Assembly (NCBI GenBank): GCA_013299115.1
Contig: JAAFKA010000004.1
Location: 1 to 64,000, forward strand
Reading direction: 5' to 3'
Length of the DNA: 64,000 bases
Source of the DNA: Cytophagales bacterium
GTDB taxonomy: Bacteria > Bacteroidota > Bacteroidia > Cytophagales > Thermoflexibacteraceae
The translations under genes were made by a program, and so were the position numbers. This document shows positions 7,489 through 15,588 of the stretch, one piece after another; position 1 is the stretch's first letter, and each line of letters opens with the position of its first letter. The notes beneath the pieces were generated by a model. It was not told the DNA's origin and made no database searches. It worked only from the letters and a program-made list of their open reading frames with translations.

Positions 7489-7908
7489 ATGAACATAAAA
7501 GATTTAGTAAATTTTAGCGTTGCCAACAAAGACAAATACCAAAAAATAACGATAAACGAATTAGAAAAGTCGGAGGTTGAGAACATAAAAACCCATACAA
7601 ACATAGATTTGACAGGTTATAAAAGAGTGATGGATAGCCACGCCATAAATCACGTGATTAAAAATCATGGAAATGTAAAACGTGAAATTTTGCGAGGACA
7701 AATAGCGATGAATGAAGAAGATTTTGAAAAAATACCTGAAATTATAGCCAAGCCTGATACCATAGAATATGCAGGGAAAAATGATATTGGCAGAGATTTA
7801 ATAAAATTTACACAAAGCAAAGAGGAAAAAATAATTTATGTGGAGGAAGTCAGAAGTGGGAAAAAAGAAGTAGCTTTGCAAACTCTCTATAAACAAAAAG
7901 TCCGTTAA
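7489..7908 (+). CDS. PBECR-like nuclease/toxin domain protein (139 aa)
   Basis: From ATG 7489 (MNIKDLVNFSVANKDKYQKI) the product is 139 aa. It has the pattern of phage Barnase-EndoU-ColicinE5/D-RelE-like (PBECR) domains: D-S-H-A-I-N-H-V-I-K-N-H-G-N, then RGQIAMNEEDFEKIPEIIAK, then a Y-V-E-E-V-R-S-G-K-K strand and a final L-Q-T-L-Y-K. The paired His residues are candidate catalytic residues. These domains are usually toxins on phage or mobile elements. No protein antitoxin is adjacent. A minus-strand RNA candidate terminates within its last codons. The upstream in-frame extension to 7354 is low-complexity and was rejected. Confidence 0.7.
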   Translation: MNIKDLVNFSVANKDKYQKITINELEKSEVENIKTHTNIDLTGYKRVMDSHAINHVIKNHGNVKREILRGQIAMNEEDFEKIPEIIAKPDTIEYAGKNDIGRDLIKFTQSKEEKIIYVEEVRSGKKEVALQTLYKQKVR

Positions 7909-8061: not shown

Positions 8062-8165
8062 ATCATTGTCTTATGCAAATAGCCATTACCAACAGAGGAA
8101 GCAACCAAATACAGCCTGAGATTATCAAACAAATGAACAATGCCCAACGCAGTATTTGTTATTAG
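8062..8165 (+). pseudogene. PLD-like gene 5' end, truncated copy 1
   Basis: From ATG 8073 the frame gives MQIAITNRGSNQIQPEIIKQ and ten more residues before a stop at 8163. This matches the N-terminal end of PLD-like proteins (I-x-x-A-x-x-S-I-x-x-A type start). The first 64 bp (8062-8125) are repeated at 8921-8984. The rest of the gene is replaced by the PIN toxin-antitoxin pair. Confidence 0.6.
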
Positions 8166-8281: not shown

Positions 8282-8500
8282 ATGGTTCAACTCACTACAC
8301 CATTAAGTAATCTACAATTAGAGCTACTTAAATTATATGTTCGTAATGTGTCGCAAGAAGATTTGCTGCAAATTAAGTATATGCTTGCTCGTTATTTTGC
8401 CCAAAAAGCTACAGATTTAGCCGACAAGGTGTGGGTAGAAAAAGAATTAGATGCAGAAACTATTTTGCAAACTCACCTAAGAACTCCTTATAAAAAATGA
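8282..8500 (+). CDS. Antitoxin of a PIN-toxin pair
   Basis: From ATG 8282 the 72-aa helical protein starts MVQLTTPLSNLQLELLKLYV and includes SQEDLLQIKYMLARYFAQKA. It looks like the small antitoxins that precede PIN toxins in Bacteroidota and Cyanobacteria. It overlaps the toxin start by 4 bp (ATGA). A TATCTTTT box at about 8236 could be its promoter. The longer frame back to 8156 runs through the PLD remnant junction and was rejected. Confidence 0.7.
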   Translation: MVQLTTPLSNLQLELLKLYVRNVSQEDLLQIKYMLARYFAQKATDLADKVWVEKELDAETILQTHLRTPYKK

Positions 8501-8907
8501 AATTTGTTTTAGATACAAATGTATTGGTGGTTGCTATTTCTCGCAAATCTCCACATTATTGGATTTGGCAAACTTTACAAGAAGGTTTGTATGAAATAGC
8601 TGTAACAACAGAAATTTTGGCAGAGTATGCCGAAATGCTAACCAATTATTTGGGGCAAGATGTAGCCTATAACGTAGTAGAAACATTAGCAAACTTACCC
8701 AATGTAGAGCATATTACAAGATATTATGCTTGGCAGTTGATAAAAGTAGATGTTGATGATAACAAGTTTGTGGACTGTGCAGTAGCTGCCAATTCAAATG
8801 CTATTGTAACGGAAGATAAGCATTTTAATACATTAAAAGACATTACTTTTCCTGCGGTGCAGGTGATTAGTATTGCTTCATTTAAGGAAATTATCTTGGG
8901 AAATTAA
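8497..8907 (+). CDS. PIN-domain toxin (VapC/COG1569-like)
   Basis: The 136-aa product has the PIN-domain acidic set: D6 in FVLDTNVLVVAI, Glu residues in VTTEILAEYAEML, and Asp residues in VDVDDNKFVDCAVAANSNAI followed by V-T-E-D-K-H-F. PIN toxins are Mg-dependent RNases. It is translationally coupled to the antitoxin at 8282. The cassette is bounded on both sides by copies of the PLD-like gene's 5' end. Confidence 0.85.
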   Translation: MKFVLDTNVLVVAISRKSPHYWIWQTLQEGLYEIAVTTEILAEYAEMLTNYLGQDVAYNVVETLANLPNVEHITRYYAWQLIKVDVDDNKFVDCAVAANSNAIVTEDKHFNTLKDITFPAVQVISIASFKEIILGN

Positions 8908-8920
8908 AAAACTATTATTC

Positions 8921-9000
8921 ATCATTGTCTTATGCAAATAGCCATTACCAACAGAGGAAGCAACCAAATACAGCCCGAAATTATTTATCTCCCTTGTTGA
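8921..9000 (+). pseudogene. PLD-like gene 5' end, truncated copy 2
   Basis: ATG 8932 starts MQIAITNRGSNQIQPEII, followed by four residues and a stop at 9000. The first 64 bp match 8062-8125 with two differences. The break point is followed directly by the 3' end of the converging XRE gene, so the gene body has been replaced at this junction too. Confidence 0.6.
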
Positions 9001-9370
9001 TTTGTGATAGTATCTTTTCTATTTTGCTTTCCAAGTCTGCAATTTTATCTTTTAATTCTTTATTTTCTTGTATAAGTGTTTGATTTTCATCATTATCTCC
9101 AAAATAAAAGTATTGATTACTAAAAACAACACTACCTCCATTTCCTGTACTATTATTCGTAATAGATACGGTATCAGGCAATAATTCCTGTACTGGTACT
9201 TTTAACTTTTCTGCAAAAGTAACCAATTTATTGTAATCAATTTGTGTTTCATTACGTTCATACCTTGCGTAGGTAGAGTCTGGTATTCCTAAAAGGTCTG
9301 CCATATCTAATTGTGTCATATTTCTGTCCTCTCTAATAGCTAAGAGTTTTGTTCCTATACGTAGTTTCAT
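8981..9370 (-). CDS. XRE-family transcriptional regulator
   Basis: The 129-aa protein has an HTH at residues about 8-62 (LLAIREDRNMTQLDMADLLG, STYARYERNETQI). A coiled-coil C-terminal tail follows (ELKDKIADLESKIEKILSQI), probably for oligomerisation. It is divergent from the radical-SAM gene with about 160 bp between, so it may control that cassette or itself. Its 3' end overlaps PLD remnant copy 2. Confidence 0.85.
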   Translation of the reverse strand: MKLRIGTKLLAIREDRNMTQLDMADLLGIPDSTYARYERNETQIDYNKLVTFAEKLKVPVQELLPDTVSITNNSTGNGGSVVFSNQYFYFGDNDENQTLIQENKELKDKIADLESKIEKILSQINKGDK

Positions 9371-9530
9371 TTTGCTGTCATTTTTTGTGTAAGTAAAAAC
9401 TCATTTTTTGCTCTTTTAATGCTCAAAAGTATCTTATATTTTTGGGATAACAAAAATTAAAGAAATATTTTGTTTGTGTACACCGAAAAATATAAGAGTA
9501 GCTTTCTATTTTCAAATAGCTTGTAAATTT

Positions 9531-10628
9531 ATGCGAAAATATTGGTATAATCAAATAGTGCTTCAACCCTGTACGGCTTGTAATATCAACTGCAATTATT
9601 GCTATTTAAAAGGTCGAAATAGACAAACGTTGATGTCGAAAGAAGTTGCAAACATTTTAGCAATGCAATTGGCCGAAGATGTTACAACTAAGCCGAGAAA
9701 AATAGAATTGATTTGGCACGGTAGTGAGCCTTTAACAACAGGAATACAGCACTTCACAGATTTATTATCTTCATTCGATAACCTGTTTGCAAAAGGTTAT
9801 ATACGTCATTCTATTCAGACTAATGCTATCTTGATTAATGAAGAATGGTGTAAGTTATTTAGCAAATATAAGTTTAACATTGGTGTAAGTATAGATGGGA
9901 CAGAAGAAATGAACCAAAATAGAGTAGATTGGGCAGGTAAAACTACTTTTAAAAAAACTTTAAACGGAATAAAAAAACTTAAAGAATATAATATCCCATT
10001 TGATATAATTGCTGTTGTATCTAAAAGTGGAATACATAAAGCAAAAGAGTTTTATAATTTCTTTAAAAATTTAGGTTTACGACACCTCAACATAAATATT
10101 GAAGAAAAAGAAGGAGTTAATCAAAATCCTTCGTTTATAGATTATGAGGATGCAAAAGAGTTTTGGGCAGAATTATTCATTGAATGGCAACAAAATTCTA
10201 ATTTCATTAGAGTACGAGAATTTGACAAAGTAATTCGTTGGTTAGGTACTGTAACAAATAATAACAAAAAAATAGAGCAGCATACAAAAGTTAATATCTG
10301 GCCTACTATTGCTACTAACGGAGATATTTGTGTTTTATCACCAGAACTAATAACTTTTGACACTAAATTTATTATTGGTAATATCCTAAATAGTACTTTA
10401 ATGTCATACATAGAACAGTGTAATACGATATGGTATTTAAGAGATTATGAAAATGGTCGTAAAAAGTGTAGTGAAACGTGTGATTATTACTCATTTTGTG
10501 GTGGTGGGTATGCAAGCAATAAATATCACGAAAATAATACAATGAATAGTGCAGAAACAACTTACTGTAAAAATGCAAGAAAAGCCTTAATAGACGGTGT
10601 TTTACCTATTGTATTGAAATCCAAGTAA
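9531..10628 (+). CDS. Radical SAM/SPASM peptide-modifying enzyme
   Basis: The ATG at 9531 gives a 365-aa protein. C17-N-I-N-C21-N-Y-C24 is the CxxxCxxC motif binding the radical-SAM [4Fe-4S] cluster. Mid-protein segments (QTNAILINEEW, GVSIDGTEEMNQNRVD) follow the radical-SAM barrel. A SPASM-type C-terminal cluster region around residue 310 reads KKCSETCDYYSFCGGGYASN. This layout is that of enzymes that install crosslinks or other bonds in ribosomal peptides. A gene for a Gly/Asp/Ser-rich mini-protein with repeated aromatic-X-Asp motifs follows 28 bp downstream on the same transcript. The upstream start at 9474 precedes the likely leader and was rejected. Confidence 0.85.
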   Translation: MRKYWYNQIVLQPCTACNINCNYCYLKGRNRQTLMSKEVANILAMQLAEDVTTKPRKIELIWHGSEPLTTGIQHFTDLLSSFDNLFAKGYIRHSIQTNAILINEEWCKLFSKYKFNIGVSIDGTEEMNQNRVDWAGKTTFKKTLNGIKKLKEYNIPFDIIAVVSKSGIHKAKEFYNFFKNLGLRHLNINIEEKEGVNQNPSFIDYEDAKEFWAELFIEWQQNSNFIRVREFDKVIRWLGTVTNNNKKIEQHTKVNIWPTIATNGDICVLSPELITFDTKFIIGNILNSTLMSYIEQCNTIWYLRDYENGRKKCSETCDYYSFCGGGYASNKYHENNTMNSAETTYCKNARKALIDGVLPIVLKSK

Positions 10629-10656
10629 TTTTCTTTATCTTTAAACCTATTATTTT

Positions 10657-10944
10657 ATGTTGTACGCCCCAAATAGCTTAGAGAAAAGAGTTATTGATAA
10701 CTCTAACTCTGTTCATAGTTTCCTTCAAAATCTTAATAATAAGCAAAAGGAAGTTGTGATTAGTGGAAAAAATTATTTTCAATCTTTTATGTCATTAGCT
10801 GGTAATGCAGAGTTCGGAGATAGTGCATTTTCTGATACTGGTGATTTCAGTGATTTTGGATATGATGATGGTTCTGGCAATGGTTCTGGTGATACAGATG
10901 GAGACGGGTTTAGTGATGGTGGAGGTGGTACATACGAACCATAG
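10657..10944 (+). CDS. Candidate RiPP precursor with repeated F/Y-x-D motifs
   Basis: The 95-aa product has a helical leader-like first half (SVHSFLQNLNNKQKEVVISG). Its acidic Gly-rich core carries F53-G-D, F58-S-D, F64-S-D, Y69-D-D, F85-S-D and the C-terminal Y93-E-P. Three-residue aromatic-x-Asp units are the substrates of cyclophane (triceptide)-forming radical SAM/SPASM enzymes, so the gene at 9531 is its likely modifying enzyme. There is no signal peptide, and no protease or transporter gene is adjacent. A strong terminator follows. The RiPP call is inference from motif repetition and pairing. Confidence 0.65.
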   Translation: MLYAPNSLEKRVIDNSNSVHSFLQNLNNKQKEVVISGKNYFQSFMSLAGNAEFGDSAFSDTGDFSDFGYDDGSGNGSGDTDGDGFSDGGGGTYEP

Positions 10945-10979
10945 AAGCTAATTTTACTGCATTTCATAACACTTAATGT

Positions 10980-11019
10980 CCAAAGAGTTGGCAAATAACT
11001 ACTCTTTGGGCTTTTTTAT
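10980..11019 (+). terminator. Rho-independent terminator of the radical-SAM cassette
   Basis: Arms CCAAAGAGT and ACTCTTTGG flank an 11-nt loop, followed by a T-rich tract from 11012. Confidence 0.8.
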
Positions 11020-11040: not shown

Positions 11041-11100
11041 TTACGATTGTCAAAGTCTTGCCGACCCTCGCCAACGTAAAAAATGCCAACGTAAAAAAAA
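11041..11100. repeat. Degenerate REP-like palindrome
   Basis: The bases TTACGATTGTCAAAGTCTTG...CCAACGTAAAAAA are a worn copy of the palindromic family that is dense around 18 kb. Another worn copy is at 11730-11790. Both sit just before copies of the shared antitoxin promoter. Confidence 0.5.
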
Positions 11101-11381: not shown

Positions 11382-11702
11382 ATGTATAGCATTGGAGATA
11401 TTTTACTGATAGCTTTTCCTTTCACGGCTGGTGGGGCAAGCAAAAAACGACCAGCATTAGTGCTATTAGACACAGGAGATGCTGATGTATTGGTAGCAAG
11501 AATTACCTCACAAACCAACCATAGTGAATATGATGTAATGATTGAGGAATGGGAAAATGCAGGTTTATTAGTATCTTCTTATATTCGTTTACACAAATTA
11601 GCAACCTTAGAAAAAGTGTTGATAGACAAGCAATTAGGCGAATTATCGGCAACTGATTTGGAAAAAGTGAGAGAGAAATTAACAGAAATTTTTGGTGGGT
11701 AA
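11382..11702 (+). CDS. MazF/PemK-family endoribonuclease toxin
   Basis: The 106-aa product carries the PemK/MazF signature: GDILLIAFPFTAGGASKKRP-A-L-V-L, the A-R-I-T-S-Q strand and the S-Y-I-R-L-H-K-L-A-T-L region with a catalytic Arg/Thr pattern. MazF-type toxins cut mRNA at short motifs. It pairs with the antitoxin at 11161. Full length and apparently intact. Confidence 0.9.
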   Translation: MYSIGDILLIAFPFTAGGASKKRPALVLLDTGDADVLVARITSQTNHSEYDVMIEEWENAGLLVSSYIRLHKLATLEKVLIDKQLGELSATDLEKVREKLTEIFGG

Positions 11703-12651: not shown

Positions 12652-12831
12652 TTATTTTTGCCTTTCAACAGAAAGCAAAATACAATGAAAATAATAAAAT
12701 TTGGCGGGACTTCCGTTCAAACCTCCGATAGAATTAAGGGAATTATCGAGATAATGAAAGCCGACAAAACCGTTAGGGTAACAATTTGTTCGGCTTTGGG
12801 CGGCATCACCGACCAACTCATAGAAACTGCA
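12652..12831 (+). repeat. 180-bp direct repeat of thrA leader and 5' end (copy B)
   Basis: This segment matches 15409-15588 at 179 of 180 positions (one T/A change, GAATTAAGGG versus GAATAAAGGG). It covers the thrA -7 box, leader and first 49 codons. The upstream flank (ATTTTTTAATAGATTTTC) instead matches copy A. Confidence 0.95.
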
Positions 12832-12867: not shown

Positions 12868-12954
12868 TGAAATTTCTCCCAATATTTTGGCGTTTTTGAC
12901 CTATTAATATATTTTAAATATATTTTCTTTCCTATCTTTGTGAAAAATATAGCA

Positions 12955-13776
12955 ATGGAAATTATAGCAAATAATCATCATACAGATACAATAGTAAACA
13001 CTATTCATTGTATAGATTGTGTAATAGGTATGCAGCAACTACCTGATAATTTGGTGGATTTGGTAGTTACCTCACCGCCTTATGACGACTTGCGGAATTA
13101 CAATGGTTATGCTTTTGACTTTGAAAAAATAGCTAACCAACTTTTTCGGGTAGTTAAGCAAGGTGGCATAGTGGTTTGGGTGGTTAGTGATAAAATTAAA
13201 AATGGAAATAGGTCATTGACAAGTTTTAGGCAGGCTTTGTATTTTCAAGAAATAGGTTTTAATGTCCACGATGTGATGATTTATGAAAAGAAAAATACAC
13301 CTTTTATGAGGTCTAATGCCTACACAAATTGCTATGAATTTATGTTTGTCTTTGCAAAAGGAAGCCCCAAAACTTTTAATCCTCTCAAAACAGCAACTGC
13401 AAGAAGTGGTAAAGAAAAGTTAGTTGCAAACAAAAAGGCTGATGGAATTAACAAGAAAGTTTGGGGAGAACTTAATACCGAAAAAACCCTAACTAATATC
13501 TGGCAATATGCAGTGGGGTTGGGTGGCTCAACAAATGATAAAATAGCTTTTCAGCACACTGCTATTTTCCCTGAAAAGTTGGCTGCTGACCATATTCTTT
13601 CTTGGACAAATGAAAATGATATTATCTTAGACCCTATGTGTGGCTCTGGCACAACTTGCAAAATGGCGAAACTATACAAAAGAAATTACATTGGTTTTGA
13701 GATTTCAGAAGATTATGCAAAAATAGCAATAGAAAGGATTAAACTATTGGACAGTATGCCTTTGTTAGAGTTCTAA
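12955..13776 (+). CDS. DNA methyltransferase (N4-cytosine/N6-adenine, beta class)
   Basis: The 273-aa protein from ATG 12955 has motif IV at residues 40-43 (TSPPYDD) near the N-terminus and the AdoMet-binding motif I near the C-terminus (ILDPMCGSGTT, around residue 230). That order defines beta-class amino-methyltransferases. The apparent GTG start at 12940 overlaps the -7 box TATCTTTG (12933-12940), so 12955 is the start, with a very short leader. It converges with and overlaps by 4 bp the nuclease gene at 13773. It would methylate the site cut by the cassette's nuclease. Confidence 0.9.
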   Translation: MEIIANNHHTDTIVNTIHCIDCVIGMQQLPDNLVDLVVTSPPYDDLRNYNGYAFDFEKIANQLFRVVKQGGIVVWVVSDKIKNGNRSLTSFRQALYFQEIGFNVHDVMIYEKKNTPFMRSNAYTNCYEFMFVFAKGSPKTFNPLKTATARSGKEKLVANKKADGINKKVWGELNTEKTLTNIWQYAVGLGGSTNDKIAFQHTAIFPEKLAADHILSWTNENDIILDPMCGSGTTCKMAKLYKRNYIGFEISEDYAKIAIERIKLLDSMPLLEF

Positions 13777-14354
13777 GTAGCTTTTTCGTATTTTTTGAGA
13801 TAGCTGATTACTTTTTCTAACAGTTGAATATCGTCTTTAAATCTACCTAAACCTGTATTGCAACTATCACAAATCCATTCCCTGCCCATCCCTGTTTTAT
13901 GGTCGTGGTCTTTTACTATGTTGGCAGTTACGCCCACGATAGACATTTTTTCACAAATTGGGCAGTTGAATAAAAGTGTTGGTTTGATGCTGTCCATCCT
14001 TTTACTTTCTGCTCGCAAAAATGCTACACCATCTATACCAACTCTGCAAACAGTACAGCTTGGTCGTGTGGTTTTTCTCCCTTGTGCATCTGTTTGGTTA
14101 ATATCAAAATCTTCGTAATCATTTTTTAAGATATGGCAAACATTGCAAATTTTTACAGGATAAGGTTTTCCTGTTTGGGTAACATCTAAAAATTCTACGT
14201 TAGACAAACTAACAATTAGAGTTTGTTTTTTGCCTATAAAAAATACAGTAACATTTTGATTATTCACATCAGCAACCAAACCAACAGAATTTTTTTCAAT
14301 GGTTGATATTTTGGTTTTGGCAATAACAAAGTCATTTATTTTAATTAATGTCAT
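13773..14354 (-). CDS. HNH/endonuclease VII-like restriction endonuclease
   Basis: The 193-aa product has two zinc-knuckle pairs: C-x-x-C in KICNVCHIL with PSCTVCR, and FNCPICEKM with ICDSCNTGLG. Between them is the beta-beta-alpha-metal core IVKDHDHKTGMGREWICDSC, with the D-H-D-H and the N of S-C-N-T. This is the endonuclease VII type also used by Hpy99I-like restriction enzymes. Location beside a methyltransferase makes it the probable restriction subunit. Residues 1-65 may bind DNA. Confidence 0.75.
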   Translation of the reverse strand: MTLIKINDFVIAKTKISTIEKNSVGLVADVNNQNVTVFFIGKKQTLIVSLSNVEFLDVTQTGKPYPVKICNVCHILKNDYEDFDINQTDAQGRKTTRPSCTVCRVGIDGVAFLRAESKRMDSIKPTLLFNCPICEKMSIVGVTANIVKDHDHKTGMGREWICDSCNTGLGRFKDDIQLLEKVISYLKKYEKAT

Positions 14355-14385: not shown

Positions 14386-14904
14386 TTATCGTGTCATCAG
14401 AAAATCTTTTAAATCACAGTTTAATAGTTTACTAATTGAACTTTCAACCATTTCATTTTTTTTAGATTTTTGATTTTTTGAAAAAAAACTGAAATAAACT
14501 TTATTTTCATTATCAAACTCAATCAAAAAGGCTTCTTTTAACGAGGGGATATTTTGTAAACAATCTTGTATCTTTTGCTTTATTTTAGTTTTTTGCACGC
14601 CTTTTTTTGTTATTTCAGCTAGAAAAAGTAATTCATTTGTTCCTTTTTGAAGAATTACAAAATCTAAATTGTACTTTTTTTGTAAATCATTTATTCCTAT
14701 TTTATCAATAGAAAGTTCAGATAAAGGCATATAGTTATTCAAGTCTGCCTTATTTCTTACTTCAAAAATTAAATCAGCAATTATGCTCTGATGCAACAAA
14801 GAATTACCAATACCACCAAGTCCTTTGTTTCCTTGTGGTGTCTTTTTTTTATTCGTTGAAGTTTTTTTAGCTGCTTTTTGAATTGTTGTTTGTTTCTTTT
14901 TCAT
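14386..14904 (-). CDS. Hypothetical protein of the R-M cassette, possible PD-(D/E)xK-like fold
   Basis: The 172-aa protein has a Lys-rich N-terminal tail (about 30 residues) and a core with LDFVILQKGTNELLFLAEIT-K-K-G. Spacing of the D and the E-x-x-K resembles a PD-(D/E)xK nuclease core. A strand with FLIEFDNENKVYFSFF follows. It lies 31 bp upstream of the HNH gene on the same strand, so they are probably one operon. It may be a second nuclease, specificity or accessory subunit; this assignment is weak. Confidence 0.5.
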   Translation of the reverse strand: MKKKQTTIQKAAKKTSTNKKKTPQGNKGLGGIGNSLLHQSIIADLIFEVRNKADLNNYMPLSELSIDKIGINDLQKKYNLDFVILQKGTNELLFLAEITKKGVQKTKIKQKIQDCLQNIPSLKEAFLIEFDNENKVYFSFFSKNQKSKKNEMVESSISKLLNCDLKDFLMTR

Positions 14905-14961: not shown

Positions 14962-15264
14962 TTACTGCTCATAATCAATAATTTTGTCAATCAGAAGTTG
15001 TAATACTTCATCTGTACTTTGCAATAATTCTTGATTGTTTAGAAAAAGATTTGATAAAGGAATTTTGAAATAATCAGCAAGCATATTGAGTTGTTTCAAT
15101 GTATATTTGTGTTTAAATTTAGGACTTTCAATATTGCCAACCTGCCCCACACTTCCTAAGCCTATAATTTCACAAATTTGGGCTTGACTTATATTTTTTT
15201 CTTCTCTCAAATTTTTTATTTTCTCAATAATCAAGAGTTGATAAGTTGTTTTTTCTGACTTCAT
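14962..15264 (-). CDS. XRE-family regulator, probable controller of the R-M operon
   Basis: The 100-aa protein has an HTH at residues about 12-70 (KIKNLREEKNISQAQICEII, then GLGSVGQVGNIESPKFKHKY). It is first in the minus-strand operon with 14386 and 13773. Small HTH proteins at this place often time the expression of the restriction enzyme after the methylase. Role inferred from position. Confidence 0.8.
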   Translation of the reverse strand: MKSEKTTYQLLIIEKIKNLREEKNISQAQICEIIGLGSVGQVGNIESPKFKHKYTLKQLNMLADYFKIPLSNLFLNNQELLQSTDEVLQLLIDKIIDYEQ

Positions 15265-15408: not shown

Positions 15409-15588
15409 TTATTTTTGCCTTTCAACAGAAAGCAAAATACAATGAAAATAATAAAATTTGGCGGGACTTCCGTTCAAACCTCCGATAGAATAAAGGGAAT
15501 TATCGAGATAATGAAAGCCGACAAAACCGTTAGGGTAACAATTTGTTCGGCTTTGGGCGGCATCACCGACCAACTCATAGAAACTGCA
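15409..15588 (+). repeat. 180-bp direct repeat of thrA leader and 5' end (copy C, native)
   Basis: Native copy of the repeat found at 12652-12831. Upstream of TTATTTTTGCC the sequence differs completely from copies A and B, so the junction lies exactly at the promoter's -7 box. The -7 box TATTTTTG is at 15410-15417 and the leader is about 20 nt. Confidence 0.9.

Follow-up and report, generated by a model that had tools for sequence, protein, structure and literature searches.

An AmcB-like radical-SAM enzyme and an aromatic-x-Asp-rich peptide form a probable triceptide-type cassette in an accessory region of a Cytophagales bacterium

Among the described triceptide maturases, YxdB creates the bond C3(Tyr)-Cbeta(Asp), which makes aromatic-x-Asp a proven crosslink motif; with OscB the residues joined are Trp or Phe and Asn/Asp, and with MscB Phe and Ser (reviewed in PMC11002830). 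The partner peptides of annotated relatives contain comparable three-residue units: WDN, WND and WGN next to GrrM of Nostoc, WSN/FSN repeats in Phaeobacter, WVN, FAR and WDK in XyeA of Xenorhabdus, and YKD, WKK and YID in the peptide of G086, a genome of the order Cytophagales.

The window, i.e., the whole 64,000-nt stretch of DNA analysed here, is derived from another Cytophagales bacterium (contig JAAFKA010000004.1). As the first-pass annotation had reported, it contains two adjacent genes on the + strand, one for a radical-SAM enzyme and one for a 95-aa peptide, separated by 28 nt between stop and start codon. The features of the locus, with the basis of each assignment, are as follows:

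8981-9370, - strand: XRE-family (HTH_3) regulator gene, oriented divergently to the enzyme gene, product of 129 aa (Pfam HTH_3, 2.8e-12)
9473-9504, + strand: degenerate DUF805b-like element, TTTGTGTACACCGAAAAATATAAGAGTAGCTT (core pattern, position, spacing)
9531-10628, + strand: gene of an AmcB-like radical-SAM/reduced-SPASM peptide maturase, 365 aa from ATG (NCBIfam, Pfam, alignment, tree)
10657-10944, + strand: orphan precursor peptide gene, 95 aa (ORF translation)
10657-10812, + strand: proposed leader, residues 1-52, near neutral (translation, charge count)
10813-10944, + strand: proposed core, residues 53-95 (motif enrichment over shuffles, p 0.003; synonymous codons vary)
10813-10821, 10828-10836 and 10846-10854, + strand: FGD, FSD and FSD of the core
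10861-10869, 10909-10917 and 10933-10941, + strand: YDD, FSD and YEP of the core
10978-11018, + strand: intrinsic terminator with a stem of 11 bp and a T run (RNA fold, z -2.6)

The unit has its own terminator, as had been noted, and it is a strong one: the hairpin occupies positions 10978-11011 and the T run follows directly; a simple terminator scan did not pick up this hairpin. Its position among toxin-antitoxin cassettes was also seen correctly, with a PIN toxin gene at 8497-8907 on one side and a MazF/PemK toxin gene at 11382-11702 on the other, and no protease or transporter gene is recognised beside the two genes. A TTG codon at 9474 was rejected as the start of the enzyme gene, as it lies within the conserved intergenic element and the ATG at 9531 fits the relatives.

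The best match of the enzyme among the NCBIfam families is AmcB (NF041718), with 399.9 bits (9.2e-120) over residues 7-358 of 365. This is 25 bits short of the curated cut-off of 425, and for that reason the enzyme is labelled AmcB-like and not filed as AmcB. The second family, GrrM/OscB (TIGR04261), gives 270.2 bits, 40 below its cut-off of 310, and the third, the anaerobic sulfatase maturases (TIGR03942), 178.7 bits against a cut-off of 349. The ranking is the opposite of that in the relatives L003, L007 and L029, which score higher with GrrM than with AmcB and pass the GrrM cut-off. The Pfam Radical_SAM match (4.5e-17) accompanies the CxxxCxxC motif that had been pointed out, here C17/C21/C24, which together with C313/C317/C323/C346 is invariant in an alignment with GrrM, sulfatase maturases, and XyeB. 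The SPASM cysteines of the first-pass annotation are thus present only in part: the distal four are kept, and the first auxiliary-cluster cysteines of the sulfatase maturases are absent, a reduction of the SPASM part that also speaks against membership in that family. In the alignment GrrM likewise lacks the first auxiliary-cluster cysteines and keeps the distal four, and it shares EExEG and SPEL-type motifs with the window enzyme. In a tree of 14 sequences, including GrrM proteins, sulfatase maturases, and XyeB, the window enzyme is sister to the GrrM group (support 99/99) on a long branch (1.53), with the sulfatase maturases and XyeB outside this clade. The solved structures closest in sequence are those of ChlB and anaerobic sulfatase maturases, and the defence library yields only a weak generic match to viperin, which belongs to another radical-SAM family. 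Three of the features by which triceptide maturases (3-CyFE) are recognised are found here: CxxxCxxC with C-terminal auxiliary-cluster cysteines, grouping with cyclophane enzymes, and an adjacent aromatic-x-X precursor. Judged by its sequence, the enzyme is an AmcB-like maturase of the triceptide type that falls short of both curated cut-offs.

Translation agrees with the earlier description of a Gly-rich 95-aa peptide with FGD, three FSD, YDD, and a terminal YEP. Residues 53-95 contain, in order, FGD, FSD, FSD, FGY, YDD, FSD, and YEP; they include 13 Gly and 10 Asp among 43 residues and neither Lys nor Arg. The boundary between leader and core would fall between residues 52 and 53. Seven aromatic residues lie within these last 43 positions, five of them followed by Asp two positions on. 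Composition-preserving shuffles give 1.6 expected [FYW]xD motifs against the five observed (p 0.003), and p 0.0002 for three FSD. The FSD units are encoded by TTT-TCT-GAT, TTC-AGT-GAT, and TTT-AGT-GAT, and because their Ser and Phe codons differ, a recent repeat or duplication of DNA does not account for them. No relatives of the precursor were found in plasmids, phages, its own genome, NCBIfam, or Pfam. HaaA with TPR repeats, met when an AmcA precursor family was sought under neighbouring NCBIfam numbers, was set aside as irrelevant here.

Taken together, the two genes can with good confidence be considered a minimal triceptide-type RiPP operon, in which an aromatic-x-Asp precursor is crosslinked by the AmcB-like enzyme. 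The [4Fe-4S] cluster bound by CxxxCxxC would cleave SAM reductively, and the enzyme would then remove a beta-hydrogen from the Asp of those aromatic-x-Asp units that make up the precursor's C-terminal motif series. Joining of the Asp beta-carbon to the Phe or Tyr ring would give up to five three-residue cyclophanes, each with a loss of 2 Da; we infer the pairing of enzyme and substrate, the type of crosslink, and the number of rings. Transcription is expected to start in the XRE/enzyme intergenic region and to end at the terminator 3' of the precursor gene, under the putative control of the divergent XRE protein and the DUF805b-like leader, and the peptide leader would be cut off by a protease encoded elsewhere. 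Since annotated relatives have partner peptides built on the same aromatic-x-X logic, a multi-cyclophane peptide is the most likely product. The designation of the locus as a possible new RiPP cassette was overstated: a triceptide-type cassette is the best reading, and both the enzyme class and the type of motif have already been described.

Cyclophane formation, as predicted from the genes, is the best supported of the readings because AmcB is the top curated family, far above the sulfatase maturases (179 bits), because the enzyme falls in the GrrM clade to the exclusion of sulfatase maturases and XyeB, and because it has the EExEG/SPEL-type motifs and reduced cysteine set of GrrM. The enrichment of precursor motifs with differing codons and the joining of Tyr to Asp by YxdB (PMC11002830) argue in the same direction, and on these grounds the suggestion that the aromatic-x-Asp units are cyclophane targets is the best one. 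Against a triceptide stand the scores below the AmcB and GrrM cut-offs, the lack of a second AmcB-type locus, and so of homologous precursors in which motif conservation could be followed, among about 1,160 Bacteroidota genome scans, a precursor that belongs to no known family, and its stretch DTDGDGFSD, which is similar to calcium-binding repeats. SPASM enzymes close in sequence can perform different chemistry, and with its sequence outside every curated equivalog the enzyme could modify the peptide in another way, e.g., by epimerisation, an ether link, or oxidation of Asp/Ser; this is unlikely, as both of the two best families are cyclophane-forming and the three-residue aromatic pattern is present in the precursor.

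A cassette in decay since its horizontal transfer, with its product no longer made, appears very improbable. The degenerate regulatory element and the rarity of the locus in the order, including its absence from a same-genus genome, would fit such a decay, whereas both ORFs are intact, the enzyme retains its key motifs, the codons of the FSD units vary, and the operon has a terminator. Hardly to be expected at all is an enzyme that serves as a maturase of sulfatases or other proteins next to an unrelated peptide, for instance an unmodified calcium-binding Asp/Gly-rich one. The third-best family and some of the closest solved structures are those of anaerobic sulfatase maturases, and DTDGDGFSD resembles EF-hand or thrombospondin-3 loops; however, the enzyme lacks the first auxiliary-cluster cysteines and lies outside the sulfatase-maturase clade, no sulfatase was seen among the window ORFs, and the peptide has neither a Pfam calcium-binding match, even at E 10, nor a signal-peptide-like start. 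Crosslinking of the aromatic-x-Asp units by the AmcB-like enzyme remains the preferred reading.

A search of other Bacteroidota, proposed for the gene pair together with the original description, revealed no second AmcB-type locus among about 1,160 genome scans, made up of partly overlapping samples of the order, phylum, and class; matches this strong occur only in the window's own genome, and no genome of these samples passes the AmcB cut-off of 425. Triceptide-type cassettes are present in three of about 380 genomes of the order (the window's, G010, and G086), with GrrM above its cut-off in 2 of 380, and the locus is absent from a genome of the same genus. Viral contigs contained no relative when scanned with the window enzyme and nothing matching the DNA pattern of its cluster motif; a scan with a small alignment found only one GrrM-type locus, in two contigs. 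At this type of locus in the IMG/VR contig L029 (984-6119) a 1232-aa protein that has a P-loop NTPase motif (GGSGSGKSSLVRAG) and resembles conflict-system ATPases is encoded ahead of the GrrM-type enzyme, and no precursor is recognised there. A frame with a His/Asp repeat (HDRGHDRGHDHDKGHDKDHDRK), cut by the contig end, lies upstream of a GrrM-like enzyme in L031 (2562-2737, G1041) and is a possible precursor of an unusual kind.

This distribution fits a rare and probably mobile cassette, and many toxin-antitoxin and restriction-modification genes surround it. Just 3' of the XRE gene, the PIN toxin-antitoxin cassette lies between the two copies of a 64-nt direct repeat (97%; 8062-8125 and 8921-8984), an arrangement like that of an insertion with target duplication. 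Similarly, the 5' region of thrA is present as a direct repeat of 180 nt (99%; 12652-12831 and 15409-15588) that encloses a restriction-modification island, as in an insertion with a long target duplication. The island comprises an N6/N4 methylase gene (12940-13776), a His-Me finger type II restriction enzyme gene (13773-14354), an ORF (14386-14904), and an HTH gene (14962-15264). Additionally, a 73-nt sequence occurs three times (78-96%), at 11095, 11783, and 12235, each copy directly 5' of a small gene, and these three genes are probably of the antitoxin type. A PBECR3 nuclease-type toxin domain (5.5e-21) is encoded at 7492-7908 in the same accessory stretch.

The divergent XRE gene is present as reported, but it is not specific to the cassette. 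Its paralogous group has 34 matches in 7 of the 13 genomes of the family, mostly adjoining unrelated genes. A gene found so often elsewhere does not argue for a dedicated regulator, and that role was rejected in the form first given. When upstream regions were aligned, a conserved block emerged that Rfam assigns to DUF805b RNA (RF02914) at L007, L010, L018, and L024; L023 scores just under the gathering score. Combining the positions of the XRE genes with those of the RNA, each set obtained by its own genome search, gave nine XRE-DUF805b pairs in the window's family, all divergent and 94-100 nt apart, against 0.004 expected by chance within 200 nt, and the RNA precedes the ATG of the next gene by a median of 26 nt (IQR 23-28). 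Outside the family none of 28 DUF805b loci has this XRE; the XRE link is therefore lineage-specific and the RNA widespread.

In the window the corresponding element, 9473-9504, lies 103 nt from the XRE ATG and ends about 28 nt before the enzyme ATG, close to the usual distances of about 97 and 26 nt. Its core, CCGAAAA-N5-AGAGTAG, is unique in the window (0.01 expected). Rfam reports no match to RF02914 there, the gathering score being 35.6. Both stems of the DUF805b H-type pseudoknot covary; the element keeps approximately 3 of 4 P1 and 2 of 3 P2 (pseudoknot) pairs, about one pair in each stem being preserved through changes on both sides, counts that come from our own regex alignment with about five misaligned rows. 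The most fitting name for it is degenerate DUF805b-like element. Among the three triceptide-type cassettes of the order, in a post hoc comparison of three cases, the window has the XRE gene with this element, G010 has an XRE gene only (45% identical), and in G086 a complete DUF805b precedes the peptide gene by 23 nt.

At 58 DUF805b loci (L048-L077 and L080-L107) the RNA lies 20-33 nt before the start codons of mostly exported small proteins. By a simple rule 39 of the 53 readable downstream genes look exported, 32 with signal-peptide-like starts and seven with double-glycine leaders of the bacteriocin type (L081, L083, L085, L096, L097, L098, and L107), and the same rule selects 37 of 86 ORFs of the background (p 0.0005, Fisher test), a rough comparison because that background is from the same loci. 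It may tentatively be proposed, though with some doubt, that the XRE protein together with the DUF805b pseudoknot RNA constitutes a transferable control module reused before exported or bacteriocin-type peptides in the order, with the triceptide cassette as one cargo. If so, DUF805b would be the leader element of a peptide-competition regulon and not an isolated orphan RNA motif. The link between structured RNA, XRE, and exported peptides was not described in the literature searched, which did not include the paper defining DUF805b. The kind of system is already known, and this arrangement of regulator and RNA is the less expected part; through the regulatory context, a connection of exported peptides with an orphan structured RNA and an XRE-type regulator becomes open to testing.

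As regards the known systems, the element in the window resembles DUF805b RNA (RF02914) in its CCGAAAA...AGAGTAG core, position, and spacing, but is below any reported Rfam score. The enzyme matches AmcB, annotated as cyclophane-forming, over its full length and better than any other family, yet remains under the cut-off of that family. With GrrM/OscB it shares the clade, the reduced cysteine set, and an adjacent Gly-rich precursor, whereas its score is below the GrrM threshold and its precursor carries F/Y-x-D, not mainly W-x-N/D. The likeness to YxdB, the Tyr-x-Asp triceptide maturase (PMC11002830), lies in the aromatic-x-Asp target motif, as known from its description. The locus extends the triceptides by a substrate rich in F-x-D and by an AmcB-like enzyme that scores under the family threshold, from an order in which such enzymes are very rare.
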